Made by a program: the position numbers and the translations under genes
Source: Aliarcobacter sp.
GTDB lineage: Bacteria; Campylobacterota; Campylobacteria; Campylobacterales; Arcobacteraceae
Assembly (NCBI GenBank): GCA_028703945.1
Contig: JAQVLW010000009.1
Location: 1 to 64,000 of the forward strand
Reading direction: 5' to 3'
Length of the DNA stretch: 64,000 nucleotides
Part shown: piece after piece, positions 1 through 60,008 of the stretch
How the letters are laid out: each line of letters starts with the position of its first letter
Numbering within the stretch: the stretch's first letter is position 1
Notes under the pieces: model-generated
The model's database searches: none
Told to the model about the DNA's origin: nothing
What the model saw: only the letters and a program-made list of their open reading frames with translations

Positions 1-2
1 AA

Positions 3-107
3 TCAATTATTTTTAATGGAATTAAAATTGGTGATAAAAGATTTATTTATAATAAAGTAGAAAAAAAGTTGTTGATTTTGAATTCAGATTTTTTGGATTT
101 GATATAA
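3..107 (+). CDS. C-terminal fragment of a CDS running in from the left window edge (...SIIFNGIKIGDKRFIYNKVEKKLLILNSDFLDLI*)
   Basis: Open frame from position 3 to TAA at 105-107; ends just before the displaced ffs terminator. Confidence 0.5.
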   Translation, partial: SIIFNGIKIGDKRFIYNKVEKKLLILNSDFLDLI

Positions 108-111
108 AAAA

Positions 112-137
112 AGAGTACAAAAGTACTTTCTCCAGAT
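112..137 (-). terminator. Displaced original ffs 3' end and terminator (attL side of element)
   Basis: Minus strand reads ATCTGGAGAA-AGTACTTTTGTACT-CTTTTTTT: hairpin plus T-run. ATCTGGAGAA (plus TTCTCCAGAT, 128-137) also occurs at 5924-5933 in ffs. Confidence 0.6.
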
Positions 138-241
138 TCCTATATAGTTTATTTTAATACGATAAAATGGCGATTAGTTACTATTATAAATTATAAGAGT
201 AACGTTTAGAGTAACAATTTATAATTCCAATAGTTTAAATT

Positions 242-874
242 CTAATAAGCTTTTAGTATATTTTCTATCATAATATTTGTTATTTCACTATTTTCTTTTT
301 CATTAGGTAGTTGACATTGTTCTTTATATGGCATTATAAGTTCTTTTAATCCTGATAAGTTAAAAGTTGCATTCATTGGATTATTGTTATATGGTGCAAC
401 TTTCAAAACTAAAGTTTTTTTATACACTAGTTCATATAGTTTTGATTTTAGACTTAATTTATAGTTTGATGCTAATTCATCAAATTGGGGATAAAATATT
501 GATGTAAAATTTTTTGAAACAGGGTAGTAATTACCTTTAACATCTAATAAGTTAGCTCCAGTTCTTTCAAGATTTGCATTTGATTTATCAAATATTTCTT
601 CAGTTTTTTTGTCATAACTTACAACTCTTTCTAACATTTTTACTTTTTCTGTATGTAAAAAAGTATTCCAATCTACAATAATTTCAGGATAGTCTTTTAT
701 CCCGCATCTCACAATCAATTTTACATTTTTGCCTTGGGGGTTATCTTTTGAATTATTTATAAATGCAATACCATTTTTCCCAGTAAAAGGGTCTTTTTCT
801 AAATTAAGTTTTTCCCAATTATTTGCTGATAATGTACTTATTAATATAGTTATTAATGCTAAATATTTTTTCAT
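242..874 (-). CDS. Exported hypothetical protein, VasI-like pattern
   Basis: Signal peptide MKKYLALITILISTLSA; 'LIVRCGIKDYPEIIVDWNTFL...APYNNNPMNATFNLSGL' resembles VasI-type proteins (by-eye). Confidence 0.6.
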   Translation of the reverse strand: MKKYLALITILISTLSANNWEKLNLEKDPFTGKNGIAFINNSKDNPQGKNVKLIVRCGIKDYPEIIVDWNTFLHTEKVKMLERVVSYDKKTEEIFDKSNANLERTGANLLDVKGNYYPVSKNFTSIFYPQFDELASNYKLSLKSKLYELVYKKTLVLKVAPYNNNPMNATFNLSGLKELIMPYKEQCQLPNEKENSEITNIMIENILKAY

Positions 875-1134
875 TTAAGTTCCTTTAAATATGCAGTTAA
901 TGTGTAATAGTAAGTATCTCCATATCTTACTTTTGAAATGTTTTGACCTTCATGTACAATAGTGAAACCATATAAAACTTTACATGCACCACTACGTATT
1001 AAATCTTCAGCAACATAAGCTCTAGAATTTCTATCTGTATCTGCAATTAGATAAAGTGAACTTTCACTTTTACAAGCAAACACATTAGCAAAACTAAAAC
1101 TAACTAAAATAGATAAAAGAAAAATTTTTTTCAT
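871..1134 (-). CDS. Small exported hypothetical protein
   Basis: Signal peptide MKKIFLLSILVSFSFANVFA; overlaps the next gene by 4 bp. Confidence 0.6.
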   Translation of the reverse strand: MKKIFLLSILVSFSFANVFACKSESSLYLIADTDRNSRAYVAEDLIRSGACKVLYGFTIVHEGQNISKVRYGDTYYYTLTAYLKELK

Positions 1135-1300
1135 TCAAACTCCTTTTTTTTATATTAACATAAGAAAGAATCGGAAATGAAATATTTTAAATTATTTTAA
1201 GTGTTATAATATTTTTTGTTTCATATTCACTCTACATTTGTAACTTGATAAGATATTTCTACACAACTATACTTGCACTACACTTGTAATGTAGGTAAAT

Positions 1301-1555
1301 ATGAATAAAAAGTTTGATGATTTAAGTACAGAAGAAATATATAAACTTATTGGTAAAAATGTCGCTAAATTTAGAAAAAAAGCAAATATGAGTCAATTAG
1401 AACTTTCTTTAGAAATGGGCAATAAATCTACTAGTTTAGTATCATCAGCCGAAATATGTAAAAATAATCGTAAATTTAATATTGCCCAATTACATAAAAT
1501 TTCAAAAATCTTGAATATAGAATTTTGTGAATTCTTTAAAATACAAAAAGACTAA
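1301..1555 (+). CDS. XRE-family helix-turn-helix regulator
   Basis: 'IGKNVAKFRKKANMSQLELSLEMGNKSTSLVSSAEICKNNRKFNIAQLHKISKILNI' is a Cro/CI-type HTH. Confidence 0.85.
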   Translation: MNKKFDDLSTEEIYKLIGKNVAKFRKKANMSQLELSLEMGNKSTSLVSSAEICKNNRKFNIAQLHKISKILNIEFCEFFKIQKD

Positions 1556-1789
1556 ATCTCTAAAATTTAACTTCTTTCATATCTCATCAGACATTTATAA
1601 ATATAATTATCTAATTTCCATCTATTTCCTTAATTTTAATCTAATATAGCCTATAAAAAGGGTTTTTAATAAAATCCAATAAGATTTTAACGGAAACGGA
1701 AACCAAAATAAAAACATACACCACAGAAAGATTATAGGGTGCTGACGACCCCTATTGAATATAAAAAACTTTTTGTAGTACCTTAAAAA

Positions 1790-2446
1790 TTACAGCATAT
1801 TTACAAAATTTCTAAATTCATGTAAGGGTAATGCCAATACTTTAATATTAGGAATAATTACTTTTGCTTCAATTCTCCACAAAGGAAAATCTAATTTATT
1901 CTTATATGCTTTATCATAAATAGTTATTCTTTCAATCATATTGTTAAAGGTTTCATTTATGTAATAAGTTTTATAAAATAAACCATTTTTAATATATTGT
2001 TTAACATTGTAGTAACTACTTATATTTTCAATATTTGGTTTTTTATTCATATCAAAACAAATATCTACATTTGTAATATTTTTTAAAATACTAATAATTT
2101 TATCAATCAAATTATATGGTGGTGGCTCTTTATGATATTGTTTCATTCCAAATATTACCATAGTAGCTTTTTTATATTTTGGTTTATCTTCATTTGAGTT
2201 GTAATAATAAATATTATAGTTTTCAAGTTGATATACACTTGTAATCTCTTTATCTACATATCTTCTTTTTAGTTTTTGAATAATGTAAGAATTTTTTTTT
2301 AATTTATGCCAATTACCTAACTTTTTTAAAGGCTCCAATTTATACTCTTTACTAAATTTAGTTCTAATTGTATCTATTGAAAAAGTCATATTATTTTCTA
2401 AATTAAATTCTTTGATTTCTATTTCTAAATTAGATAGAATGTTCAT
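1790..2446 (-). CDS. Putative phage/plasmid-type replication initiation protein
   Basis: 'VDICFDM', 'ITIYDKAYKN...LWRIEAKV' resemble Rep_trans/gene II-like Rep proteins; inference only. Confidence 0.4.
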   Translation of the reverse strand: MNILSNLEIEIKEFNLENNMTFSIDTIRTKFSKEYKLEPLKKLGNWHKLKKNSYIIQKLKRRYVDKEITSVYQLENYNIYYYNSNEDKPKYKKATMVIFGMKQYHKEPPPYNLIDKIISILKNITNVDICFDMNKKPNIENISSYYNVKQYIKNGLFYKTYYINETFNNMIERITIYDKAYKNKLDFPLWRIEAKVIIPNIKVLALPLHEFRNFVNML

Positions 2447-2576
2447 AGTGTTTTAAGACCTATTATAAAGAACTATACTTAACCAACCTATATAGAATAT
2501 CGCCAAATACCACTATATAAGGGTTTAGTATAGTTTTCTGATTTTAAGGTAGTCTAAAAATTAGATTACCTTGAAC

Positions 2577-2834
2577 TTACCTATACGGTGTATTATTTAC
2601 CTTTTTTCTTTTTTTTCTAAAATCTAAATCTTTTCTTTTTTCTAATATTTCATTTCTTCTTCTCGAAATAGTTTCTAATGTACTTAAACATTCTAAAGGA
2701 AGATAAATATTATGTATTTCTTGTAGATAAACTTGTTTAATTGCAGGATTACCTAACTCTGAACCATAAAAACGATTACTTTCTAGTTTTTCTAAAACCC
2801 ATAATTTTAAATGGGTATTTACAAATTTATCCAT
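2577..2834 (-). CDS. Hypothetical protein of the integrative element
   Basis: ORF, overlaps the neighbouring gene by 8 bp in the same operon. Confidence 0.5.
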   Translation of the reverse strand: MDKFVNTHLKLWVLEKLESNRFYGSELGNPAIKQVYLQEIHNIYLPLECLSTLETISRRRNEILEKRKDLDFRKKRKKVNNTPYR

Positions 2835-3084
2835 TATTTACCTTTCTTAACTTATTCATTTCTGATGTTAAAGTTTGCATAATATCTTTATCCAGAAATT
2901 CAACTATGTTTGAATCTCTATCCATTCTCGTATAGAATAAATCTATACAGTTAATATATAGAATTTCTAATAATTGAAGTCTAGTAACTTTTTTAGGTTT
3001 AACTCCATCTTCTTTTACAAAAAACTTTAAAGCTTTATAATTTACATTATATTTAGTTGCAATTTCTCTAATTAAACTTTTCAT
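2827..3084 (-). CDS. Hypothetical protein of the integrative element
   Basis: ORF, overlaps upstream ORF by 4 bp. Confidence 0.5.
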   Translation of the reverse strand: MKSLIREIATKYNVNYKALKFFVKEDGVKPKKVTRLQLLEILYINCIDLFYTRMDRDSNIVEFLDKDIMQTLTSEMNKLRKVNNG

Positions 3085-3290
3085 TTTGTTACCTCATTAT
3101 TTAGGTTAAATACTTTATTTATTTCATCTATTGAAAAAACAGTTACTCTATCACTAATTTTAATTGGAGTAATACGTTTATTTTTTGCATACAGCCATAC
3201 TGTACTAAGTCCTATTCCTAAAAGTTTTGCTAACTCTTTAGCTCTGTAAAACTTTTTATTTTTAAGTTCTGTAAATATTTCTTTTGACAT
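3081..3290 (-). CDS. AlpA/MerR-like HTH (excisionase-type) DNA-binding protein
   Basis: 'KFYRAKELAKLLGIGLSTVWLYAKNKRITPIKISDRVTVFSIDEI' matches the AlpA/HTH_17 pattern. Confidence 0.8.
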   Translation of the reverse strand: MSKEIFTELKNKKFYRAKELAKLLGIGLSTVWLYAKNKRITPIKISDRVTVFSIDEINKVFNLNNEVTK

Positions 3291-3425
3291 AAATTTCCTT
3301 TTAAAGTAAATTTACAATTGCAATTGTATTTGTATGTACATAACGGAATTATATTAGGTTAAAATTGGAAAATTAACGAAAGAAAAGAGTGTTTAATTCT
3401 TAGGAATTGAGATATCTTTCAATTC

Positions 3426-4454
3426 CTAATTTTTAAGACCTGTTATAAGTTCTTTATATTTTAGTTTGTCAATGTATTCTTTAGCAATATCTAAATATTT
3501 ATTTATAGTCCCATAATCTACTAAATGTTTATCATGGTAATTAGTAAGTCCCATTTGTATTATAGATTTTTTTACATCTTTATTTATGCTATCGTAAATA
3601 TAAAACATATCAGCTAAAGTTTGTGTATCTATTTTATTGGTTTTTTTATTAATATATAGGATTTTATTTGCTTTTTCTAAGTCTTCTCCTAATAACTCTG
3701 AATAACTTTTTATTCTATTACTTGAATAAATATCATTTAGTACATCTTTTACAAATGCTTCGATATCTTTTTGTGGTAAATTTTGATTAATCTCAATATT
3801 GTAATTTTTCATTTTGGAAAAGTTCCCTAATAATTCAGGTCTTTTATAGTTTGGTTTTATAGTATTAGTCATTATATTATACGTATCATCAGTATGGTAT
3901 ATTTGAGTTAAATTGTAAGAACTTTTAGTAATATATCTAAAAATAAAATCATCTTCTATATTTTCTATTTCATTATCATTTTTATATTGAAAGAAGATTT
4001 GATTATATTCATTTATATATTTTTCTCTATTTATTAATTTTTGTTTATATTCAGGGAAATTATTGATATCTTTTATTGTTTCTAATTCATAATCAATTCT
4101 TTGTCTAATATATTGCTTTTCTTTACTTTTATACTGTTTTATTAAAGCATCAAACCAAGGATAATCTAAAAATAAATTCAATACACTTATACATTTTTTA
4201 TCCATAAGTTGAATAGCGTGTATATTATAGTATCGTGAAGTTTTATCCCTAAAAATATCTGTAGATAAAATTGGCTTATAATCACAGTATGATAATAAAT
4301 TTTCTGAATGCAAATTTAGAAATTTTTTAATTAATTCAATAACCTCTTGATTTCTAATTGTAAATTCATAAGCAACACAAATATTTATTTCATGTTCATT
4401 AAAATTTTCTATATCTTTATAAACCGTATTTTCTCTTGGAAGTGATTTATTCAT
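3426..4454 (-). CDS. Hypothetical integrase-companion protein
   Basis: 342-aa ORF overlapping the integrase stop by 8 bp. Confidence 0.55.
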   Translation of the reverse strand: MNKSLPRENTVYKDIENFNEHEINICVAYEFTIRNQEVIELIKKFLNLHSENLLSYCDYKPILSTDIFRDKTSRYYNIHAIQLMDKKCISVLNLFLDYPWFDALIKQYKSKEKQYIRQRIDYELETIKDINNFPEYKQKLINREKYINEYNQIFFQYKNDNEIENIEDDFIFRYITKSSYNLTQIYHTDDTYNIMTNTIKPNYKRPELLGNFSKMKNYNIEINQNLPQKDIEAFVKDVLNDIYSSNRIKSYSELLGEDLEKANKILYINKKTNKIDTQTLADMFYIYDSINKDVKKSIIQMGLTNYHDKHLVDYGTINKYLDIAKEYIDKLKYKELITGLKN

Positions 4455-5718
4455 CCAATAACCTTTTTATGTAATTACTCCACCATTTAACTAATGGTTT
4501 CATTTGTTCAAAAAATTCTGCTCTATGGTTATAAGCTAATTCTACTTTATTACTATCATGATGGTCTAAAAATCTTTTTTTTACATCGTAACTTATGTTA
4601 TGCTCATTTTGATGTGTATCTATTAAACTTCTATATATACCTCTAAATCCATGTAGTGTTTGTTTATTTTTATAACCCATTCTTTGAAGTGCTACATTTG
4701 GAGTATTAGAATTTAGTACTTTATTGTTTACTGATAAGAAAACATATTCTTGATGTGATGTATATTCATATTGATTTTTTAATATATTTACAACCTCATC
4801 AGATAGTGGGACTTTAAAATCAGGAAGATTTTTATTTTTTACTTTCATGAGCTTTCTTGGAATAGTTAAACTTCTATTTTCAAAATTTATATATTCCCAT
4901 AAAAGATTCGTAAGATTAGATGCTCTTAACGGTAAATGAATACCCAATTTTAAAGAGTTGATAGTGCTGTAATGACCATTGTAATTATATATATCATTTA
5001 TTAGATTTTTTAGCTCATTTGTTTCTGTAATTTTTGCATAGTGAGTAATATCAGCTTTTGGTATGATGAGGTCTTTTAGAATATTATCAAAAGGATTTTT
5101 TTCTGCAAAACCTAAAGTAATTGCATATTTAAAAATTGTATTTAGATAATTATATAGTTTATTTGCAGTTTCTATACCATCAGGTGGATTATCATTATCT
5201 TTAGCTGAATGTATTTTTTTAGCTAATCTTTCTTTTAATACTTTGATAATATCTTGGTGGCTTATATTATCAATAGATTTATTTTGTAAGTAAGGATAAG
5301 CATCATTTTGAACTATTGCTTTTTTTCTTTTAAATGCTTTTGGGCTTATGTGTTGTTCTTTAAAATCTAACCATTGTTCAGCAATATTTTTGAAATTGTT
5401 ATTTTCTTTTTTTATGATGTTTTGTTTTTCTTCATGTTTATTATCAATAGGGTCTATACCTTTACTGATGAGGTCTAAACATTCATTGGTTCTATCTCTT
5501 GCAGTTGATAAAGAAGTATTAGGGTAATATCCAAAAGTAGTCTTTCGGCGTCTTTTTTTACCTTGATTAGTATATTGAGTTGGACTTGAATAAATAAATT
5601 CCCATTTTTTACTTTTATCGGGTTTTATTAATATTTGTAATCCACCTCCATCAGATAAAGCATAATCTTTCTCTTTTGGTTTTAAACTTTTAAGTTTTGT
5701 ATCTGTAAGCTTACCCAT
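4447..5718 (-). CDS. Tyrosine recombinase/integrase (P4-type, N-terminal arm-binding domain)
   Basis: 'LTDTKLKSLKPKEKDYALSDGGGLQILIKPDKSKKWEF' N-term; C-term 'LHGFRGIYRSLIDT...KRFLDHHDSNKVELAYNHRAEF'. Confidence 0.93.
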   Translation of the reverse strand: MGKLTDTKLKSLKPKEKDYALSDGGGLQILIKPDKSKKWEFIYSSPTQYTNQGKKRRRKTTFGYYPNTSLSTARDRTNECLDLISKGIDPIDNKHEEKQNIIKKENNNFKNIAEQWLDFKEQHISPKAFKRKKAIVQNDAYPYLQNKSIDNISHQDIIKVLKERLAKKIHSAKDNDNPPDGIETANKLYNYLNTIFKYAITLGFAEKNPFDNILKDLIIPKADITHYAKITETNELKNLINDIYNYNGHYSTINSLKLGIHLPLRASNLTNLLWEYINFENRSLTIPRKLMKVKNKNLPDFKVPLSDEVVNILKNQYEYTSHQEYVFLSVNNKVLNSNTPNVALQRMGYKNKQTLHGFRGIYRSLIDTHQNEHNISYDVKKRFLDHHDSNKVELAYNHRAEFFEQMKPLVKWWSNYIKRLLDE

Positions 5719-5905
5719 AATATAGCCTTTAGATAAGTTAGTGTTACTTTGAATATTACTCTAAAGTGTTACTTTATTTTAGAGGTAACACTTAAGGTAA
5801 CAAATATGTAAAGATTTTGTTACTCTAACTTAGATTTAGTTAGATTATTGTATCATAAAAAAAGTTATTGATTGATTGGTTTTATAGGCTTTGTCAAACT
5901 TGATT

Positions 5906-6113: not shown

Positions 6114-6521
6114 ATGGTTTATTTAATACTTTTTATTACTTCACTTATTTCGGCGACTTTATTTCCTCTTGGAAGTGAAGCTTTACTTATTTATGATATT
6201 AAAGAAGGATATAATTTATATTTATTGCTTTTATTCGCAACTATTGGGAATAGTTTGGGCTCAGTTATAAACTATTTTTTAGGTTTAAAAGGGGAAGAGT
6301 ATCTTTTAAAAAAATCTTTAATAAAAGAAAGTTATATAATAAAATGTAAAAAATATTTTGATAAATATGGCTTATATACAATTCTTTTTTCTTGGTTACC
6401 AATAATTGGTGACCCTATTACTTTTGTGGCCGGAATTTTAAAATATGATTTTAAGAAATTTTTGTTTTTAGTAATTATTGCTAAGTTTTCTAGATATTTA
6501 TTTTTAGTAATTATTATATAA
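6114..6521 (+). CDS. YqaA/DedA-family SNARE-associated membrane protein
   Basis: 'FPLGSEALLIY...GNSLGSVINYFLG...FSWLPIIGDPITFVAGILKY'. Confidence 0.8.
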   Translation: MVYLILFITSLISATLFPLGSEALLIYDIKEGYNLYLLLLFATIGNSLGSVINYFLGLKGEEYLLKKSLIKESYIIKCKKYFDKYGLYTILFSWLPIIGDPITFVAGILKYDFKKFLFLVIIAKFSRYLFLVIII

Positions 6522-6524
6522 ATT

Positions 6525-6552
6525 ATCGTTGTATATTAATTTATATAATGGT
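6525..6552. promoter_or_regulatory. ModE box 1
   Basis: ATCGTTGTATA-TTAATT-TATATAATGGT; close to the ModE palindrome ATCGnTATATA-N6-TATATAACGAT. Confidence 0.7.
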
Positions 6553-6567
6553 AAAATTTTTTAATTT

Positions 6568-6595
6568 ATCGTTATATAAGTTTATATATAACCAA
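6568..6595. promoter_or_regulatory. ModE box 2
   Basis: ATCGTTATATA-AGTTTA-TATATAACCAA; left half is an exact ModE half-site. Confidence 0.75.
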
Positions 6596-6605
6596 AAGGA
6601 TTTAA

Positions 6606-7388
6606 GTGGAGATTTTATCAAATTTAACTTTAGAAATTTTTAATCAACCTTTTTTATTAGAAAAAAGAATTGAGTTATTAATTGCAGTTAAAAGAACAGG
6701 CTCAATTAGCAAAGCTGCGAAAGAAGTTCCTATGAGTTATAAAGCTGCATGGGAAGCTATTGAAGCTATGAATAATCTATCAACTATACCAATTGTACAA
6801 AGAGAAACAGGTGGGGTTGGGGGTGGAGGAACGACACTTACACCTTATGGGGAAAATCTTATAGAAACCTTTGAAATTTTAAGAAATGAACAAAAAAAGT
6901 TTCTTAAGAATTTAAGCCAAATAACTGATATAAATACAGGGACATTAAAAACTATAAGGAAATTATCAATGCAAATTAGTGCTAGAAATCAGATTAGTGG
7001 TATTGTTGAATTAATTGAACATGGGAAAATAAATGCACAAGTGTTTATTAAATTAAAAAGTGGAAATACTCTTGTTTCAGTTATTACAAATACAGCAGCA
7101 AATAATCTAAATTTGGAAATTGGTGATGATGTGGTAGCTATTTTTAAATCAAGCACCGTATTAATTACAACAGATATGGCATTAAATATTAGTGCAAGAA
7201 ATAAATTTGATGGAATAGTTGATTCTATTAATCAAGATGAAATTAATACAGAATTAGTAATTGATATTGGAAATAGCGAAAAAATTGCCTCTATAATAAC
7301 TTCAAGCTCAGTTGAAAGGTTAAAAATAGAAAAAGGGTCACAGGTGAGTGCTATTATAAAAGCCTCGGATGTAATAATTGGAAAATAA
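6606..7388 (+). CDS. modE: Molybdate-responsive transcriptional regulator ModE (HTH + two TOBE/Mop domains)
   Basis: 'LLIAVKRTGSISKAAKEVPMSYKAAWEAIEAMNN' and two 'SARNQ(K)..GIV..I' TOBE repeats; GTG start. Confidence 0.93.
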   Translation: MEILSNLTLEIFNQPFLLEKRIELLIAVKRTGSISKAAKEVPMSYKAAWEAIEAMNNLSTIPIVQRETGGVGGGGTTLTPYGENLIETFEILRNEQKKFLKNLSQITDINTGTLKTIRKLSMQISARNQISGIVELIEHGKINAQVFIKLKSGNTLVSVITNTAANNLNLEIGDDVVAIFKSSTVLITTDMALNISARNKFDGIVDSINQDEINTELVIDIGNSEKIASIITSSSVERLKIEKGSQVSAIIKASDVIIGK

Positions 7389-7397
7389 GGAAAAAAA

Positions 7398-8174
7398 ATG
7401 AAAAAGATAATCTTAGGATTTATGGTTTTATGTTCAAGTATATTTGCAGGTGAGATTACAGTTGCCGCTGCTGCAAATGTTACTTATGCTATGGATAAAT
7501 TAGTAAAAGAATTTAATGTTGCTAACCCTGATACAAAAGTTGTTGTTACATTAAGTAGTAGTGGGAAATTAGTTTCACAAATCGAAAATGGTGCACCATT
7601 TGATATTTTTATGTCAGCAGATATGAAATTCCCACAAGCACTATTTGATAAAAAATTAACAACAATAGCACCTGTAATATATGCTCAAGGTGCCTTAGCA
7701 ATGTTAAGTTCAAAAGAGCTTGATTATTCAAAAGGAATAAATATATTAAATGATATTTCAATATCAAAAATTGCAGTTGCTAATCCAAAAACTGCACCTT
7801 ATGGAGCGGCTGCTATTGAAGCAATTAAAAATGCAAAAATAGGAAATGGCGTTGAAAGCAAATTTGTATTCGCAGAATCAATTTCACAAGCTGTAACTTA
7901 TGCTATTACTGCTGCTGATGTTGGTTTTATCGCAAAATCATCTTTATATGAAGATAATATGACTAAATATAAAGAAAATAAAAATTGGATAACTGTTGAT
8001 CCAAAACTTTATACTTCAATTGACCAAGGAATCGTAATAATTGACCATTCAAATAGTCTTGTTGGATTGATTAAAGATAACAATAAAAAAGAAGAAGTAA
8101 AAGCTTTTTATGATTTTATTTTAGGTGCAAAAGCTAAAAAAATATTTGAAGATTATGGTTATATAACAAAATGA
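7398..8174 (+). CDS. modA: Molybdate ABC transporter substrate-binding protein
   Basis: 'EITVAAAANVTYAMDKLVKEF...SSSGKLVSQIENGAPFDIFMSADMKFPQ'. Confidence 0.95.
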   Translation: MKKIILGFMVLCSSIFAGEITVAAAANVTYAMDKLVKEFNVANPDTKVVVTLSSSGKLVSQIENGAPFDIFMSADMKFPQALFDKKLTTIAPVIYAQGALAMLSSKELDYSKGINILNDISISKIAVANPKTAPYGAAAIEAIKNAKIGNGVESKFVFAESISQAVTYAITAADVGFIAKSSLYEDNMTKYKENKNWITVDPKLYTSIDQGIVIIDHSNSLVGLIKDNNKKEEVKAFYDFILGAKAKKIFEDYGYITK

Positions 8175-8572
8175 GCCAATTAGTTGCAACAATAAAAAAA
8201 ATAAATTCTATTGATAATCTAAATATTGTAGAGTTTGATTTTCATGGATTAACTCTAAAAATGATGAGTTTAGATTTAAATACTGATGTACAAATAGGTA
8301 AAAAAGTAAAACTTTCTGTTAAACCTACAAACATCTCTATTGCTAAAAATCTAATAGGTGAAATAAGTTTATCAAATCAAATTGTTGCAACTATTGAAAA
8401 TTTAGAAAATGGGCAATTACTCTCTAGTGTTAGCCTAAAAGTTCATAATACACTACTTGAAAGTATTATAACTGTAGATTCATCAAAAAGAATGAATCTA
8501 CAAATTGGGGAAGTTGTTACAATTTTGATTAAAGCAAGTAATTTATCTATTGATGAAGTGCTAAATGATTGA
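8171..8572 (+). CDS. TOBE-domain molybdate-binding (Mop-like) protein
   Basis: Two TOBE-like repeats, 'IGKKVKLSVKPTNISIAK...IGEVVTILIKASNLSI'; between modA and modB. Confidence 0.8.
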   Translation: MSQLVATIKKINSIDNLNIVEFDFHGLTLKMMSLDLNTDVQIGKKVKLSVKPTNISIAKNLIGEISLSNQIVATIENLENGQLLSSVSLKVHNTLLESIITVDSSKRMNLQIGEVVTILIKASNLSIDEVLND

Positions 8573-9266
8573 AATATTAAGAAATATTGATTTTGAACCG
8601 TTTATACTCTCTTTTAAATTAGCAGGAATTACTACTTTAATTTTGTTTCTTATTAGCTTACCAATTGCTTGGTATTTATCTCAAACTAAATCAAAATTTA
8701 AACCTATATTAGAAGCAGTTACCGCTTTACCTATTGTTTTACCTCCTTCTGTTTTGGGGTTTTATATACTTGTTTCTTTGTCTCATAATTCACCAATAGG
8801 TCAGTTTTTCCAAGAATATTTTGGTACGAAATTGGTTTTTAATTTCACAGGTTTAATAATTGCTAGTTGTTTTTATAGTTTGCCTTTTATGGTTCAGCCT
8901 TTACAAGGTGGTTTAGAAAGTATAAATAAAAATATGCTTGAAGCTAGCTATATAAGTGGCAAAAGTAAACTAGAAACTCTTTTTAGAGTTGCTTTACCAA
9001 ATATAAAACCCGCTTTATTAACAGCAATTATAATTACTTTTTCTCATACTGTTGGAGAATTTGGAGTTGTTTTAATGATTGGTGGAAGTATTCCAGGAGA
9101 AACAAAAGTAGCATCTATCGCTATTTATGAATTTACAGAAACTATGGATTATACTAATGCACATATTTATAGTGCAATTATGATAACTCTTAGTTTTCTT
9201 ACTCTTCTAGGCGTTTATATTTTTAATGGAAAACAAAAAAGAGTATTTGCAGGATTTAGTAAATGA
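8565..9266 (+). CDS. modB: Molybdate ABC transporter permease
   Basis: 'ALPIVLPPSVLGFYIL...SHTVGEFGVVLMIGGSIPGETKVASIAIYE'. Confidence 0.95.
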   Translation: MIEILRNIDFEPFILSFKLAGITTLILFLISLPIAWYLSQTKSKFKPILEAVTALPIVLPPSVLGFYILVSLSHNSPIGQFFQEYFGTKLVFNFTGLIIASCFYSLPFMVQPLQGGLESINKNMLEASYISGKSKLETLFRVALPNIKPALLTAIIITFSHTVGEFGVVLMIGGSIPGETKVASIAIYEFTETMDYTNAHIYSAIMITLSFLTLLGVYIFNGKQKRVFAGFSK

Positions 9267-10117
9267 TAAAAATTGATATAAATAAAAAACTTCATGGTGC
9301 AAATGGAGAGATGGATTTAAATATAAATCTTGAAATAAAACAAGGTGAATTTTTAGCACTTGCAGGACTTAGTGGAAGTGGTAAAACAACTCTTTTAAGG
9401 ATTTTAGCTGGTCTTGAAGAGGCAAGTGGAACTATAAATATTGATAATGATATTTGGTTAAATGATAAATTTTCTTTAGCTCCTCAAAAAAGAGAGATAG
9501 GTTTTGTATTTCAAGATTATGCTTTATTCCCAAATTTTTCAGTAATAGATAATCTTTTATATGTAAATAAAGATAAAAATTTGGCTAATTATTTGTTGAA
9601 AATGACTGAATTGGATGAATTAAAAAATAGATTTCCTCAAACACTAAGTGGAGGACAAAAACAAAGAATTAGTTTGTGTCGGGCATTAATGAATAGACCA
9701 AAAATATTATTAATGGATGAACCTTTATCCGCACTTGATTCTAATATGAGAACAAAACTTCAAGATGAAATTCTTGCTTTACATAAAGAATTTAAAACTA
9801 CAACAATTATGGTAAGCCATGATTCAAGTGAAATTTACCGTTTAGCAAACCGTATGGTAGTTTTAAATTATGGGCAAATAATAAGTGATGGAAGACCTAA
9901 AGATATACTTCTAAAAACAAAAGGTAGCCAAAAATTCTCATTTGAAGGTGAACTTTTAGATATAGTAAAAGTTGATGTAATTTATGTAGCAATTGTTTCA
10001 ATTGGACAACAATTAGTCGAAGTTGTTGTTAGTAAAGATGAAGTAATAAATTTAGAAATTGGACAACGAGTAACTCTTTCTACCAAAGCATTTTCACCTA
10101 CAATACAAGGTCAATAA
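9263..10117 (+). CDS. modC: Molybdate ABC transporter ATP-binding protein
   Basis: Walker A 'GLSGSGKTT', signature 'LSGGQKQR', Walker B 'ILLMDEP', C-terminal TOBE. Confidence 0.94.
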   Translation: MIKIDINKKLHGANGEMDLNINLEIKQGEFLALAGLSGSGKTTLLRILAGLEEASGTINIDNDIWLNDKFSLAPQKREIGFVFQDYALFPNFSVIDNLLYVNKDKNLANYLLKMTELDELKNRFPQTLSGGQKQRISLCRALMNRPKILLMDEPLSALDSNMRTKLQDEILALHKEFKTTTIMVSHDSSEIYRLANRMVVLNYGQIISDGRPKDILLKTKGSQKFSFEGELLDIVKVDVIYVAIVSIGQQLVEVVVSKDEVINLEIGQRVTLSTKAFSPTIQGQ

Positions 10118-10136
10118 GTCAATTTAAAGGAAAATT

Positions 10137-10949
10137 ATGGGATTAATTCAAACAAATTTAGACACTTTAAATTTTGCAGAACTTTATAAAGAGCAAATGA
10201 AAAGTTCAACTTTTAAAGGGAAAAATAGCCAAGATTGGGACAAAAGAGCAAGTGGTATGAATTTAAATGTTCATAAAAGTATCTATACAAAAACTTTTAT
10301 TGATAAAATTGATACAACAAATGCTTCTTCACTTTTAGATGTTGGATGTGGACCAGGAACAATTACTTTAGCAATTGCTTCTAAAATGCAAAAAGTTTAT
10401 GCTCTTGATTATTCAGAAGGAATGTTAGATTGTGTAAAGAATAATTGTAAAGAAAAGAAACTTTCAAACGTAGTTACTATTCATAAATCTTGGGAAGATA
10501 ATTGGGATGATGTACCAAAAGCTGATATTGTTGTAGCTTCAAGATCAATGGAAGTAAAAGACATAAAAGATGCACTTATAAAACTAAATTCAAAAGCAAA
10601 TAAAAGAGTTTACCTTACTACAAAAGTTGGTGGAAGTTTTATAGATACGCAGATTTTAAATCAATTAGAAAGAGAAGTTTACCCAAGACCTGATTATATA
10701 TATTTAGTAAATGTTTTACATAGTATGGGAATATTTGCTCATGTTGATTTTATTTTGAGTGAAAATACAAAATTTGAGAGTTCAAGTGATGATGAATTTA
10801 TAGAAAGAGTTGGTTGGAGTTTAGGTGAACTTTCAAATGAAGAAAAAATTGTATTAAAAAACTATTTTAATACAACATATAAATATAAAAAAAATAGTGA
10901 TTATTTAAATTGGGCTTTAATTTCGTGGGAAATAGAAGAAAATATATAA
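10137..10949 (+). CDS. Class I SAM-dependent methyltransferase in the mod operon
   Basis: 'SLLDVGCGPGTITLAIASKMQKVYALDYSEGML'. Confidence 0.85.
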   Translation: MGLIQTNLDTLNFAELYKEQMKSSTFKGKNSQDWDKRASGMNLNVHKSIYTKTFIDKIDTTNASSLLDVGCGPGTITLAIASKMQKVYALDYSEGMLDCVKNNCKEKKLSNVVTIHKSWEDNWDDVPKADIVVASRSMEVKDIKDALIKLNSKANKRVYLTTKVGGSFIDTQILNQLEREVYPRPDYIYLVNVLHSMGIFAHVDFILSENTKFESSSDDEFIERVGWSLGELSNEEKIVLKNYFNTTYKYKKNSDYLNWALISWEIEENI

Positions 10950-41844: not shown

Positions 41845-43554
41845 ATGACTTTTAACGAATTTAATTTCAAAGAACAGTTACAAGACGCTATTGAATCAGC
41901 AGGATTCAAAGAACCAAGTCCAATTCAAGAAGAAGCAATTCCTATTGTTTTATCTGGAAAAGATATGGTTGGTCAAGCACATACAGGTACAGGTAAAACT
42001 GCTGCATTTGGTCTTCCAGTGCTTAATATGATGAAGGGACAAAATGGTGTTGAAGCTGTTGTTATTGTTCCAACAAGAGAACTTGCAATGCAAGTATCAG
42101 ATGAATTATTTAGATTTGGTAAGAATTTAAACTTAAATACAGCAACTGTATATGGTGGACAATCTTATAGTACACAATTAAGAAATATTGAAAGAGCTTC
42201 TATTATTGTAGCAACTCCAGGAAGATTTCTTGACTTATTAAGAGGTGGTAAAATTAATATTAAACCATCATTTGTAATTTTAGATGAAGCAGATGAAATG
42301 CTTGATATGGGATTTTTAGATGATATTAAAGAAATTTTTACATTCCTTCCAGCTGATAGACAAACTTTGTTATTCTCAGCAACAATGCCTCAAGCTATTA
42401 AAAATCTTGCACAAACAATTTTAAAAGATCCTGCTTTTGTTACTTTAACAAAAAAAGATATGACTAATTCTAAAATTACTCAAACATTTTATGTTGTAGA
42501 TGAAAGAGAAAGAGATGATGCATTAATCAGATTATACGATTACAAAAATCCAACTAAATCTATTATATTCTGTCGCACTAAAAAAGAGGTTGATAGACTA
42601 TCAACTTTCATGGTATCTCAAGGATTCATGGCAAAAGGTCTTCATGGTGATATGGAGCAAAGACAAAGAGAAGAGTGTATTAAAGCTTTTAAATCATCTA
42701 AATTAGAGATTTTAATTGCTACAGATGTAGCTGCTAGAGGACTTGATGTTAATGATGTTTCTCATGTATTTAATTACCATTTACCATTTGATTCTGAATC
42801 TTATGTACATAGAATTGGAAGAACAGGAAGAGCTGGAAAAGAAGGTGTTGCTGTTTCAATTGTAACTCCTCATGAGTTTAGAATGTTACAAAAAATTGAA
42901 AAAAATATTGGTGCAAAATTAGAATCAAAAATTGTTCCTGATATTGATTCTGTTAAATTAAAAAAAGTTACAGAATTAAAAAATCAAATTGTTGAACAAG
43001 AAATTCAAGATTACGCATTAGCATTAATTGAAGAATTAAAAGAAGAATTTGATATTTCTACAATTGCATTTAAATTAGCATCTATGATTTCAGCGTCTAC
43101 ATTTGTTCAAGGTAATAATACTATTGGTAAATCAGAATCTGATATTAAAAGACTTATTGAAAATTCAAGTAGATATGATAATGATGGATCAAGCTCTGGA
43201 AGAAATTCAAGAGGTGGTAGAGGTGGAAGATTTGGTGGTTCTAGAGGTGGAGACTCAAGAGGTGGCGATAGAGGTCCAAGACCATCAGGAGATAGAAACT
43301 CAAGAGGTGGAGATAGGGATAGAGCGCCAAGAGGTGACAGACCAGCATCTGATAGAGGTCCAAGACCATCAGGTGATAGAGATAGAGCTCCAAGAAGTGA
43401 TAGACCAGCTGGCGACAGAGCACCAAGACCATCTGGAGATAGACCAGCATCTGATAGAGGTCCAAGACCATCAGGTGATAGACCAAAACCAAGTGGTGAT
43501 AGAGCTCCAAGAGGAGATAGACCATCGGGTGACAGAAGTAGAAAAAGAGATTAA
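41845..43554 (+). CDS. DEAD-box ATP-dependent RNA helicase with RGG/GDRP-repeat C-terminal tail
   Basis: 'AHTGTGKTAAFGLP', 'LDEADEML', 'SAT', 'HRIGRTGRAGKEG'; repetitive basic tail. Confidence 0.96.
   Translation: MTFNEFNFKEQLQDAIESAGFKEPSPIQEEAIPIVLSGKDMVGQAHTGTGKTAAFGLPVLNMMKGQNGVEAVVIVPTRELAMQVSDELFRFGKNLNLNTATVYGGQSYSTQLRNIERASIIVATPGRFLDLLRGGKINIKPSFVILDEADEMLDMGFLDDIKEIFTFLPADRQTLLFSATMPQAIKNLAQTILKDPAFVTLTKKDMTNSKITQTFYVVDERERDDALIRLYDYKNPTKSIIFCRTKKEVDRLSTFMVSQGFMAKGLHGDMEQRQREECIKAFKSSKLEILIATDVAARGLDVNDVSHVFNYHLPFDSESYVHRIGRTGRAGKEGVAVSIVTPHEFRMLQKIEKNIGAKLESKIVPDIDSVKLKKVTELKNQIVEQEIQDYALALIEELKEEFDISTIAFKLASMISASTFVQGNNTIGKSESDIKRLIENSSRYDNDGSSSGRNSRGGRGGRFGGSRGGDSRGGDRGPRPSGDRNSRGGDRDRAPRGDRPASDRGPRPSGDRDRAPRSDRPAGDRAPRPSGDRPASDRGPRPSGDRPKPSGDRAPRGDRPSGDRSRKRD
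43339..43482 (+). repeat. 42-bp exact direct repeat (43339-43380 and 43441-43482) within helicase tail
   Basis: agaccagcatctgatagaggtccaagaccatcaggtgataga at both positions, 102 bp apart. Confidence 0.9.
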
Positions 43555-44571: not shown

Positions 44572-46362
44572 ATGTGTGGAATTTTAGGAGCTAATTTCTT
44601 ATCTAATAATTTTAATGATGCGTTGGATTTATTAAATAATAGAGGACCAGATTATAAAAATAGTATAAGCTTTGAAAATAAACAATTTGGACATACAAGA
44701 CTTGCAATAATTGACTTAAATGAAGAAGCAAATCAACCTATGATTTTTGATGATATTTTACTTGTTTTTAATGGAGAAATTTATAATTATAAAGAATTAA
44801 TTCATCTGGAACAATTTGAGTGTAAAACTAAAAGTGATAGTGAAGTATTAATTAGACTATACCAAAAATATGGATTTAATTTTTTAAATAAATTAAATGG
44901 GATGTTTGCTTTTTGTATTTATGATATTAAAAAAGAGTTATATTTTTGTGCTAGGGATAGGTATGGAAAAAAACCATTTTTTTATTATTTTAAGAACAAT
45001 AAATTTATTTTTTCCTCATCAATAAAATCAATTTTAAATCTACTAGATTCTAAACCAAATCTAAATAAAGTTGCACTTTGTAAATATATGCAATATTTTG
45101 TTCCTTTTGGTGAAGATACTTTTTATCAAGATATTTTTAAATTAGAAGCTTCAACTTATATGATTTACGAGCCAAATAAGCCTCAAGAGCTTCAAAAGAA
45201 GAAATATTACAAGATAAACACATATAAAGCTATAAAGGACGAAAAACAAGCTTTAAATGATATTGAAGAGCTTTTAGTTAAAAGTGTTGAATATAGATTA
45301 AATAGTGATGTAGAAGTTGCTTCACTTTTAAGTGGGGGAATTGATAGTTCATTTATTTCAGCTTTATATACAAAAATTTCTGGAAAAAGAATAAATACAT
45401 TTAGCGTGGGTTATGATGAATACAAAAATTATTGTGAATTAGATTTTGCACAAATTACTGCTAATCATATTGGTTCAAATCATACTGCAATTGAAATAAA
45501 TCATAAAGAGTATATAAAGCATTTTGAAGAAACACTTGATATGTTAGAAGAGCCACATGGTGATAGTGCTGCAATTCCTTTGAATATTTTATCAAAACAT
45601 ATAAATAAAGCTGGAATCAAAACTGTATTATCAGGAGAAGGAAGTGATGAGATTTTTTTAGGTTATGACAATTATTCAAAATTTCTTAAATATTATGAGT
45701 TTGAAAAAAGTTTATCTAATAAACAAAATCTATTTTTAAATGATATTATTGGAGCTTTGCAAAATAATACAAAAGAAAGTGAATATTTAAGAAGAATAGT
45801 AAAAAAACAAAATCTTTATAACTCTTTTGGAGAAATTTATACAGATATTCAAAGAAAAAGATTATTCAAAAAAGTACCAACATTTAAAAGTGAAACTGCA
45901 AAGCAAGATCCAGTTGACTGGATGAGTTACATTGATTTAAAGATTTGGTTAGGGGAAGCACTTTTATCAAAAGTTGATAGAATTTCTATGGGGAATTCTT
46001 TGGAAGTGAGAACTCCATTTTTAGATTTTAATTTAGTAAATTATATGTTTAGTGTTGATTCAAATATAAAAGTTGGAGATACAAATAAGTATTTATTGAA
46101 AAAGATTGCTTCAAAATATATTCCAGAAGAAATTATAAATAGAACAAAAAAAGGCTTTAATTCACCTTTTAATGAGTGGTTAAATAAAGAGTATAAAGAT
46201 AAAATTCTTGATGTAATACTTGATGTAAACAATCAAACAAATCTCTTTAATCATGAATATATATTACATATTTATGAATTATCAAAATCAAATAAATTTA
46301 AACAACATCTTTATTCACTTTTTGTATTCTCTTTATGGTATAAAAAAGAGTTTCTTTCTTAA
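44572..46362 (+). CDS. asnB: Asparagine synthase (glutamine-hydrolysing)
   Basis: 'MCGILGANF', 'LLSGGIDSSFISALY', 'LSGEGSDEIFLGY'. Confidence 0.95.
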   Translation: MCGILGANFLSNNFNDALDLLNNRGPDYKNSISFENKQFGHTRLAIIDLNEEANQPMIFDDILLVFNGEIYNYKELIHLEQFECKTKSDSEVLIRLYQKYGFNFLNKLNGMFAFCIYDIKKELYFCARDRYGKKPFFYYFKNNKFIFSSSIKSILNLLDSKPNLNKVALCKYMQYFVPFGEDTFYQDIFKLEASTYMIYEPNKPQELQKKKYYKINTYKAIKDEKQALNDIEELLVKSVEYRLNSDVEVASLLSGGIDSSFISALYTKISGKRINTFSVGYDEYKNYCELDFAQITANHIGSNHTAIEINHKEYIKHFEETLDMLEEPHGDSAAIPLNILSKHINKAGIKTVLSGEGSDEIFLGYDNYSKFLKYYEFEKSLSNKQNLFLNDIIGALQNNTKESEYLRRIVKKQNLYNSFGEIYTDIQRKRLFKKVPTFKSETAKQDPVDWMSYIDLKIWLGEALLSKVDRISMGNSLEVRTPFLDFNLVNYMFSVDSNIKVGDTNKYLLKKIASKYIPEEIINRTKKGFNSPFNEWLNKEYKDKILDVILDVNNQTNLFNHEYILHIYELSKSNKFKQHLYSLFVFSLWYKKEFLS

Positions 46363-47353: not shown

Positions 47354-48088
47354 TTAAAATCCATTTGGATTAAACCCACCAAAATCATCTCCAAAACTAT
47401 TAAAATCCAAATTTTGTGTATAGGGATTTGAATATCCATTTTGAACAGAAATATTTTGTAATTGCATAATATCTGCTTTTGGATCAATGCCTTGAGGACA
47501 TACTAAAGTACAAGCGCTACATAATGTACAATCCCAAACCCCATTCGTTTGTATAGAATCAATTATATTTAGCCTATTTGCGTTCTTTTTATCATTTAGA
47601 TATCTTAACGCTCTTGTTAATGCAAAAGGACCTAGAAACTCTTTATTTATATCATAAACAGGGCATGAACTATAACATGAGTTACAAAGTATGCAATTAC
47701 TTTGAAGATCAATATTTTTCACATCTTCTTGAGATACTTGTATTGATTCTATATTTGCATCAATTGTTAAATTCAATTTTGAAATCAATAATGTTTCATG
47801 TGAAACATCTACAACTAAATCTTTTAAGATATTTGAGTTATTAATTGGTTCAATAAAATCATTTTCATTTAGATTTGTTTTGCATGCAAGTTTTTCTATG
47901 CCATTTACTCTTACTGCGCATGAACCACAAACACCACTTCTACAACCACATCTAAATGTTAATGTTGGATCTATCTCTTTTTTTATTTCAATTAAAGCTT
48001 GTAGTAAATTTATCTTACGAACATTAAATTCATCTAATTGAGCATTTGATGATAGTTCTTTATTAAATCTTTTTATATTAATTTTCAT
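47354..48088 (-). CDS. Succinate dehydrogenase/fumarate reductase iron-sulfur subunit
   Basis: 'RCGCRSGVCGSCAVRVNG', 'CILCNSCYSSCPVY', 'CTLCSACTLVCPQGIDP'. Confidence 0.92.
   Translation of the reverse strand: MKINIKRFNKELSSNAQLDEFNVRKINLLQALIEIKKEIDPTLTFRCGCRSGVCGSCAVRVNGIEKLACKTNLNENDFIEPINNSNILKDLVVDVSHETLLISKLNLTIDANIESIQVSQEDVKNIDLQSNCILCNSCYSSCPVYDINKEFLGPFALTRALRYLNDKKNANRLNIIDSIQTNGVWDCTLCSACTLVCPQGIDPKADIMQLQNISVQNGYSNPYTQNLDFNSFGDDFGGFNPNGF
47792..47807. promoter_or_regulatory. parS-like ParB-binding site (1 mismatch)
   Basis: TGTTTCATGTGAAACA vs TGTTTCACGTGAAACA. Confidence 0.55.
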
Positions 48089-53477: not shown

Positions 53478-54261
53478 TCATAAAGATTCTTAGATTTTTG
53501 TATTCCTCTTTAGTTAAAAATCTTGTTTTTCCTGTAGGAAGATTATTTAAAGAAATTCCACCATATTCTAATCTTTTTAAATCAAGTACATCAAGTCCAA
53601 AATGGGCAAAAAATCTTCTTAATTCTCTATTTTTACCTTCAGAAATTACAACTTTAATTTTAGAAAATTTTTCACTATTTGTTAGAATATCATAGGCTAA
53701 AAATGGAGCAAAACTCATAGATTTTATTTTACTTGTTTTAAAAGCTCCACCTGTAGCATCTTCAATTTCTAAACCATTTTGCATAGCTTGTTCAACTGGT
53801 TTTGTAATTACACCATTAACTTTAATTTTATAAACTCTTTCTAAATCAGAGTGCATTAATGCATCAACAATTTCAACACTATCAGATAAAAGTAATAGGC
53901 CTTCACTGGCATAATCAAGTCTTCCAACACTTAAAAAGTGTTTGTATTTATGATCTAATGAATCATAAATAGTACGTCTCCCTTGTGGATCTTTTTTAGA
54001 AACAATTTCACCTTTTGGTTTATTGTAAACGATTACAGTACTTATTTTATTCTTGTCTTCTCTAATCGTTTTCTTACCAATATGTACTTCATCACTATTT
54101 GAAACTTTTGTTGCAAGATTTACTACAACTTTACCATTTACTTTTACTCTACCCTCTTCTATTAGCTTATCAGCTTCTCTTCTTGAGTAGTTACTATTGT
54201 GAGATAAAAATTTATTTAATCTTACTAACTCTTCTTGTATTTCTTCACTCTTTTTTTTCAT
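53455..54261 (-). CDS. rluB: RluB/RsuA-family pseudouridine synthase
   Basis: S4 domain plus 'VGRLDYASEGLLLLSDS', 'EGKNRELRRFFAHFGL'. Confidence 0.88.
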   Translation of the reverse strand: MKKKSEEIQEELVRLNKFLSHNSNYSRREADKLIEEGRVKVNGKVVVNLATKVSNSDEVHIGKKTIREDKNKISTVIVYNKPKGEIVSKKDPQGRRTIYDSLDHKYKHFLSVGRLDYASEGLLLLSDSVEIVDALMHSDLERVYKIKVNGVITKPVEQAMQNGLEIEDATGGAFKTSKIKSMSFAPFLAYDILTNSEKFSKIKVVISEGKNRELRRFFAHFGLDVLDLKRLEYGGISLNNLPTGKTRFLTKEEYKNLRIFMNEDDRPL

Positions 54262-55220
54262 TTTATACCAGCTTCTATTAAATCATGAATATGCAATACA
54301 CCAACTAATTTATCATTCTCATCAGTTACAATTAATAGTTGAATTTTATAATCTTCTATTATTTGTAGGGCATCACTTGCTAAAAGCTCTTTATTTTTTA
54401 ACCTTTTTGGATTTTTTGTAGCAATATCTTCTACTTTACAGTCCATTGAAAAATTATCATTCATTAAAGCTCGTCTTAAATCTCCATCACTTAAAAGTGC
54501 AATTACCTTTTTATTTTCATTTTCAATAATTACACTTCCAAGTCTTCCTTCGCTCATTACTAAAATTGCATCTTTAAGCTTTGTTTCACGTGAAACAACA
54601 GGAAGATTATCTTTTCGTAACAAATCATCAACTTTAACAAAAAGTTTTTTACCTAAGCTTCCACCTGGGTGAAAAGATGCAAAATCTTCTTTTTTAAAGT
54701 TTCTTTTTTTCATTAAACAAACAGCTAATGCATCACCCATTGCCATTGTTAAAGTTGTAGAAGACATTGGTGCGGCATCAAGTGGGCAACCTTCTTTTTC
54801 TACATTTATATTTATAAAAATATCTGCATATTTAGCAAGTGTTGATTTAGGATTTCTAGCCATTGCAATTAAAGGAATATTAAATCTCTTTAAGTGAGGA
54901 AGAATTTGAACTAATTCATCACTTTCCCCACTATATGATATTCCTAAAACAATATCTTCTTTACCAACCATTCCTAAATCACCATGCATTGCTTCTGTGG
55001 GATGAAGAAAAAATGAACTTGTTCCTGTACTTGCAAGTGTTGCTGCAATTTTTGTTCCTACAAGGCCAGATTTACCAACACCTGTAACAATAAGTTTTCC
55101 TTTTGAATTTATAATTAAATCAATAGCTTTTTCAATATCAAAAGAGATAATATCAGCCGCTTTTTCTAGCTCTTTTGCCTCAGTTAATAAAACATCTTTT
55201 ACTATTTGCTTAAAATCCAT
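54258..55220 (-). CDS. kdsD: D-arabinose-5-phosphate isomerase (KpsF/GutQ family)
   Basis: SIS 'KLIVTGVGKSGLVGTKIAATLASTGTSSFFLHPTEAMHGDLGM'; CBS pair. Confidence 0.93.
   Translation of the reverse strand: MDFKQIVKDVLLTEAKELEKAADIISFDIEKAIDLIINSKGKLIVTGVGKSGLVGTKIAATLASTGTSSFFLHPTEAMHGDLGMVGKEDIVLGISYSGESDELVQILPHLKRFNIPLIAMARNPKSTLAKYADIFININVEKEGCPLDAAPMSSTTLTMAMGDALAVCLMKKRNFKKEDFASFHPGGSLGKKLFVKVDDLLRKDNLPVVSRETKLKDAILVMSEGRLGSVIIENENKKVIALLSDGDLRRALMNDNFSMDCKVEDIATKNPKRLKNKELLASDALQIIEDYKIQLLIVTDENDKLVGVLHIHDLIEAGIK
54582..54597. promoter_or_regulatory. parS ParB-binding site
   Basis: Exact 16-bp palindrome TGTTTCACGTGAAACA. Confidence 0.85.
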
Positions 55221-58782: not shown

Positions 58783-59475
58783 ATAAAAAAAATATTTTTT
58801 GGAATGACGTTGTGTATATTACCAATTATGTCATTTTCTTATGGATTAAATTTTAATAAAGGTTTTTCAAAAGTTGTAAATCCTGATTTACTAACAACAA
58901 GTATTGATGTTAGTATTCAAAAGAAAGATGAAAATGCAGTTAATATTGAAATTGAAAAGTTTAATAATTTTATAAAAAAAACTACTAATGTAACTTTAAA
59001 AAATGGGAGCTTTACATTAAGTCCCAAATACAAATATTATGATAATAAACAAGAGTTTATTGGATATATTGGAAATATAAGATATTCAGCTGAATCGAAA
59101 GATGCAAAAGAGTTAAATACTTTTATGGATAAATTAATTTCAATAAAAGACAGCATAAAATCAGACGATGTAAAATTGAATATTTCAAATGTTGCATGGA
59201 ATATAAGTGATGATTTACAAAACAAAAGTTTTGATGATTTAAGACTAGATGCGATTCATTGGATAGAAGCTTATTCAAAATCTTTATCTATTTCAATATC
59301 TAAAAATTGTGAAGTTACAAAAATAAATATTTCTGAAACAAACACAGGAAATATTGCTTATGCTAGAAGTGAAATGTTATATTCAACTATGTCAAAAAAA
59401 GTTGCTGATGTTGTACCTATAAATAGTGAGCAAAATATCACAATAAGTCCAAATTTTGTATTGGAATGTAAATGA
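58783..59475 (+). CDS. SIMPL-domain exported protein; likely ATA start at 58783
   Basis: In-frame upstream of ATG 58804: ATA AAA AAA ATA TTT TTT GGA ATG, giving (M)KKIFFGMTLCILPIMSFSYG signal peptide; AAAGGA 6 nt upstream. Confidence 0.65.
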   Translation: MKKIFFGMTLCILPIMSFSYGLNFNKGFSKVVNPDLLTTSIDVSIQKKDENAVNIEIEKFNNFIKKTTNVTLKNGSFTLSPKYKYYDNKQEFIGYIGNIRYSAESKDAKELNTFMDKLISIKDSIKSDDVKLNISNVAWNISDDLQNKSFDDLRLDAIHWIEAYSKSLSISISKNCEVTKINISETNTGNIAYARSEMLYSTMSKKVADVVPINSEQNITISPNFVLECK

Positions 59476-60008
59476 TTATTTGTGCTGGAAGAAATGAAAC
59501 ATTTGCTTTTGCTCACCCTATTGGAGTTGGCTTAATAGAAAGTGCAATAAACCTTACAAGAATGTGTCTATTTGATAAACCAGATTATCTACTTTTTGTG
59601 GGAAGTGCTGGATCTTATGGTAATTATAAAGTTTTTGATATTGTTGAATCAAAAAGAGCTTCAAATATCGAACTTGGATTTTTGACACAAAGTGCTTATA
59701 CACCACTTGATAATGTTTTGGAATCAGAAAATAAATTTGCAAGAAATGACACAATTGTAAACTCATCAAATTATATATCAACGAATGAAAAATTATGTAA
59801 AGAGTTTAATGAATATGGTGTTGGAATTGAGAATATGGAATTTTTTTCAATTTTAAGTGTAGCAAAAGAGTTTGAAATTCCAGTTGCTGGAATATTTGTA
59901 ATAACAAATTATACAAATGAAAATGCCCATGAAGATTTTATAAAAAATCACAAAGAGGCAATGGAAAAACTAACAAAATATTTACTTGAAAAAAATATAA
60001 TAAAATAA
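59472..60008 (+). CDS. Nucleoside phosphorylase-family protein
   Basis: 'YLLFVGSAGSYGNYKVFDIVESKRASNIEL', 'GVGIENMEFFSILSVAKEFEIPVAGIFVITNYT'. Confidence 0.8.
   Translation: MIICAGRNETFAFAHPIGVGLIESAINLTRMCLFDKPDYLLFVGSAGSYGNYKVFDIVESKRASNIELGFLTQSAYTPLDNVLESENKFARNDTIVNSSNYISTNEKLCKEFNEYGVGIENMEFFSILSVAKEFEIPVAGIFVITNYTNENAHEDFIKNHKEAMEKLTKYLLEKNIIK

Follow-up and report, generated by a model that had tools for sequence, protein, structure and literature searches.

Chromosomal parS sites, the DNA sequences bound by ParB, have been found within protein-coding genes in other bacteria. In P. aeruginosa, nine of ten parS sites lie in coding sequences (PMC4368675), and in Caulobacter parS is found in genes that are essential or have a high fitness cost (PMC5815017). 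On the protein side, the structure of H. pylori Spo0J has been solved in complex with parS (4umk), and two ParB residues, R173 and G201 in Caulobacter numbering, are reported to be absolutely conserved (PMC7383237). For the Arcobacteraceae, a search of the literature on Arcobacter parS and ParB found no description of a chromosomal parS, and the matching work concerns plasmids.

The window considered here, a stretch of 64,000 nucleotides from a draft genome of an Aliarcobacter species, carries an exact parS palindrome inside kdsD, a gene of the arabinose-5-phosphate isomerase family. From sequence comparison, we infer with high confidence that this palindrome is a chromosomal parS, that it forms an origin-proximal cluster together with a second site, and that it is bound by ParB and serves in segregation. 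In itself, the parS in kdsD is almost certainly an ordinary, functional chromosomal parS.

parS sites in the window and across the family

The sites and the genes that bear on them are the following:

54258..55220, minus strand: kdsD/kpsF-family arabinose-5-phosphate isomerase gene, host of site 1, with SIS and two CBS domains
54582..54597, no strand assigned: parS site 1, exact palindrome TGTTTCACGTGAAACA
47354..48088, minus strand: succinate dehydrogenase/fumarate reductase iron-sulfur subunit-like (sdhB-like) gene, host of site 2 (TIGR00384)
47792..47807, no strand assigned: parS site 2, TGTTTCATGTGAAACA, one mismatch, read in its host frame as GTT TCA CAT GAA ACA (V-S-H-E-T)
44798..44813, plus strand: decayed relic of a third, weaker parS-like site in asnB, here TAATTCATCTGGAACA
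59472..60008, plus strand: mqnB-like gene, without a site here but a parS host in outgroups, in the same reading frame and with a similar peptide

The exact palindrome that the earlier note had reported inside kdsD is present at 54582-54597, and the 16-mer occurs nowhere else in exact form in the assembly (2,333,242 bases, 101 contigs). The chance expectation for an exact match is 6e-4 per genome with independent bases, or 3e-4 under a first-order Markov model. Site 1 overlaps kdsD codons 208-213 on the minus strand, close to the start of the CBS region, and consists of the third base of codon 208 followed by GTT TCA CGT GAA ACA (V209 S R E T213). The host open reading frame encodes 320 amino acids, scores 371 bits against TIGR00393 (KpsF/GutQ/KdsD subfamily, cut-off 204), and contains the domains PF01380 (SIS) and PF00571 (CBS). 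Since the product lies below the cut-off of the strict KdsD equivalog NF008141 (335 bits vs 505), the name kdsD is valid at the level of the subfamily only.

Site 2 lies 6.8 kb from site 1, and its codons are identical in all 14 of 14 sdhB genes. The position of the asnB relic reads TGATTCACGTGGAACA in most congeners with this asnB, and has decayed here and in two other genomes (G023 and G025). A TGA stop falls in one of the palindrome's three reading frames, which leaves only two able to host the site. The frame that reads VSRET is the one used in kdsD, sdhB, and mqnB, while the other (IHVE) is used in asnB. Elsewhere in the assembly, TGTTTCACTTGAAGCA on contig C45 has two mismatches and was taken as background; at up to three mismatches, the reversed-pattern control gave 32 matches and the real pattern 31.

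Within the genus, the exact copy occurs in 14 of 31 genomes, in each case once and at the same codons of kdsD, and every genome has one or two sites with at most one mismatch. Sites of this quality are found in 87 of the 104 Arcobacteraceae genomes, while the reversed pattern at the same threshold yields about 0.1 matches per genome. The usual copy number is one to five, and where a genome has multiple sites these usually fall in clusters 5-20 kb wide. The site in kdsD is the constant element across the family, and its partner varies with lineage, being located in sdhB, the asnB-yefM gap, asnB, rarA, sdhA, or the mqnB-rlmN gap. As a point against the parS reading, three lineages (g5, g7, and g12) are mostly without sites at this threshold despite having ParB, and several of them keep variants with two mismatches.

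Position relative to the origin and the parAB locus

The oriC of A. butzleri maps to ruvC-dnaA-dnaN (PMC5043019). The record of each of the 17 complete congeners begins with dnaA, and the parS sites lie 32.8-124.7 kb from it (1.6-4.3% of the chromosome), and in a family genome whose record starts elsewhere the sites are still 38-43 kb from dnaA. In the draft assembly studied here dnaA is on a separate contig (C46), and its distance from kdsD is given by synteny: an A. caeni contig on which dnaA lies 60 kb from kdsD runs collinear with the window, and contig C46 maps directly next to the left part of the window. By synteny, these observations support an origin-proximal position of the window, bearing out the prediction of the earlier note. 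Of the other landmarks that it had named, parAB is remote from the cluster (in each of the 17 complete congeners, 19-31% of the chromosome separates it from dnaA), and GC skew is noisy. In 20 sampled stretches of a close complete relative, positive skew predominates between 132 kb and 1.45 Mb and negative skew beyond, which is consistent with an origin near dnaA, without precision.

The partition genes of this genome form a birA-parA-parB locus on contig C60, followed by an atpF-like gene (the names birA and atpF-like were assigned from translations). Its ParB contains ParB_N and HTH_ParB domains, and the closest solved relative is the H. pylori protein 4umk (E 2e-65). The equivalents of R173 and G201, which fall in KSR and SAGH motifs in the alignment to 6t1f, are kept in ParB throughout the genus. 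A point that weighs against the parS reading is that the position of Q162, a parS contact in Caulobacter ParB, is occupied by His throughout the genus. ParB_N proteins are encoded in 102 of the 104 family genomes. A second ParA/ParB-like pair, on the 7.9-kb contig C52, is probably a plasmid partition system.

Taken together with what is known of ParABS, a ParB dimer supplied from the remote birA-parA-parB locus would bind the palindrome and then load onto the origin region in a CTP-dependent manner. ParA would move the resulting ParB-DNA complex, leading to segregation of the origin, and the complex would probably load SMC as well. Site 1 and site 2 would then act as a two-site cluster of origin-proximal parS.

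The window has several further features. Positions 1-5900 have a GC content of 23%, carry a tyrosine-recombinase gene (4447-5718), and have no counterpart in the A. caeni region leading into the dnaA contig; this segment looks like an island that has integrated next to the origin region. The window as a whole yielded no tRNA. By synteny, the predicted dnaA-kdsD distance in this genome is about 60 kb plus this island. The mod (molybdate uptake) gene block at 6518-10930 is inverted relative to A. caeni, and at 43309-43503 a DEAD-box helicase has a tail rich in Arg, Gly, and Asp that is encoded by tandem repeats.

Codon and amino-acid constraint in kdsD

For 51 family kdsD genes, retrieved from loci surrounding parS-like sites, substitutions were counted on a tree from whose construction the motif was left out. 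Kinship makes such genes statistically dependent, an effect that the tree-based counts lessen without removing it. Codons 209-212 (GTT TCA CGT GAA) show no third-base changes, compared to an average of 10 at each of the gene's other codons, and the 14-nucleotide core window, with five changes where the mean is 69, is the minimum of the gene. Ser210 is encoded by TCA in 51 of 51 genes and Arg211 by CGT in 46 of 46, while CGT is used at only 4 of 284 other Arg codons. The substitutions seen at the site are nonsynonymous, from R to C or H and from E to G. These changes yield a CATG centre or TGTTTCACGTGGAACA, variants that relatives also carry as parS-like sites.

To control for bias, the test was run again with kdsD genes that had been retrieved solely for the similarity of their proteins. 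In this set, the core ranks first (slowest) of 947 windows among the Arcobacteraceae-like genes, and 873rd of 947 in outgroups; one of 25 genes (L042) has lost the site. The codons equivalent to 209-212 are among the fastest evolving of the gene in outgroup KdsD. A core that is slow in the family and fast in outgroups places the constraint on DNA, and shows that it arrives with the site. Across the family, selection at the DNA level has frozen both codons and amino acids of kdsD at this position. The earlier note had claimed a constraint on codon choice, and had proposed synonymous positions in relatives as the place to look for it; conservation there holds in both sets, and the constraint extends to amino acids. 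Because parS lies within kdsD, selection for DNA binding would purge synonymous change at codons 209-212 and hold the peptide at VS(R/C/H)(E/G)T.

The same features bear on whether the palindrome could be a product of chance, with its codons kept because KdsD needs the peptide V-S-R-E-T. This peptide is indeed conserved within the Arcobacteraceae. However, selection on the protein is unable to fix one of six Ser codons and one of six Arg codons, the latter rare elsewhere in the gene, and the residues vary freely in outgroup KdsD proteins. The same DNA word also recurs in unrelated genes and at intergenic positions of the same neighbourhood. With no synonymous variant at these codons in 51 genes, this explanation is strongly disfavoured and can be regarded as extremely improbable. 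It is also very unlikely that the element acts as an mRNA hairpin (GUUUC-ACGU-GAAAC) affecting kdsD expression. The palindrome is able to fold, and its two outermost bases are complementary in 38 of 51 genes compared to 26.6 when shuffled (a count not corrected for phylogeny), but a DNA site to which a dimer binds would equally be expected to have symmetric outer bases. Moreover, folding prediction gives nothing unusual for the local structure (z = -1.33), the ACGT loop is conserved nearly as well as the stem, and in the core no compensated stem change departing from the parS sequence is seen. The occurrence of an identical sequence in intergenic DNA and in different genes also speaks against a role in kdsD mRNA.

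Another DNA-binding protein or a modification enzyme could in principle recognize the palindrome, as its CACGTG core is a common palindromic target. Conservation nevertheless covers 14 bases, the copies usually number only one to five per genome and cluster near dnaA, and nearly all genomes of the family encode a ParB of the type that recognizes such a sequence, which leaves such a target with very little probability.

Site turnover and comparison with known systems

In outgroups, including Sulfurospirillum, parS is found in mqnB, in the same reading frame as the kdsD site. There it reads GTT (T/C)CA (CGT/CAT/TGT) G(A/G)A AC(A/C) in 22 of 22 genes, within variable surroundings, and the peptide is V[SP][RCH][EG]T. 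As these genes were picked for having a visible site, the count informs on frame and codons, not on frequency. It is likely that in Campylobacterota the origin-proximal centromere shifts among neighbouring genes of one conserved block of about 20 kb (mqnB, kdsD, rarA, sdhA/sdhB, asnB, and intergenic gaps), and that in its main frame it overrides protein evolution, imposing this peptide on its host. Such peptides would be protein-level marks of centromere position, whose changes track the site preferences of ParB and not the function of the enzyme.

This locus offers a clean, quantified case in which a segregation signal appears to determine how a metabolic enzyme is encoded and which amino acids it carries. 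Since the sites turn over among neighbouring genes, how a bacterial centromere moves can be tested by comparative analysis only, and in Arcobacter the sites offer immediate targets for ParB ChIP-seq and for labelling of the origin.

Like the ParABS systems of B. subtilis (Spo0J), Caulobacter (ParB), and H. pylori (Spo0J, 4umk), the system described here has the same 16-bp palindrome clustering near the origin, both ParA and ParB encoded in the genome, and the R and G specificity residues kept in ParB. Unlike in those systems, parAB in this genus lies at 19-31% of the chromosome from dnaA, while the parS cluster is 33-125 kb from dnaA. The location of parS within protein-coding genes is shared with P. 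aeruginosa and Caulobacter, and intragenic parS is already known; what this case adds is how strong and how lineage-specific the dual constraint is, together with the relocation of the site between neighbouring genes. In comparison to the intragenic sites of P. aeruginosa and Caulobacter, the host kdsD, its codons, and its frame are here held across the whole family, synonymous change is measured as absent, and the amino-acid changes follow parS variants.
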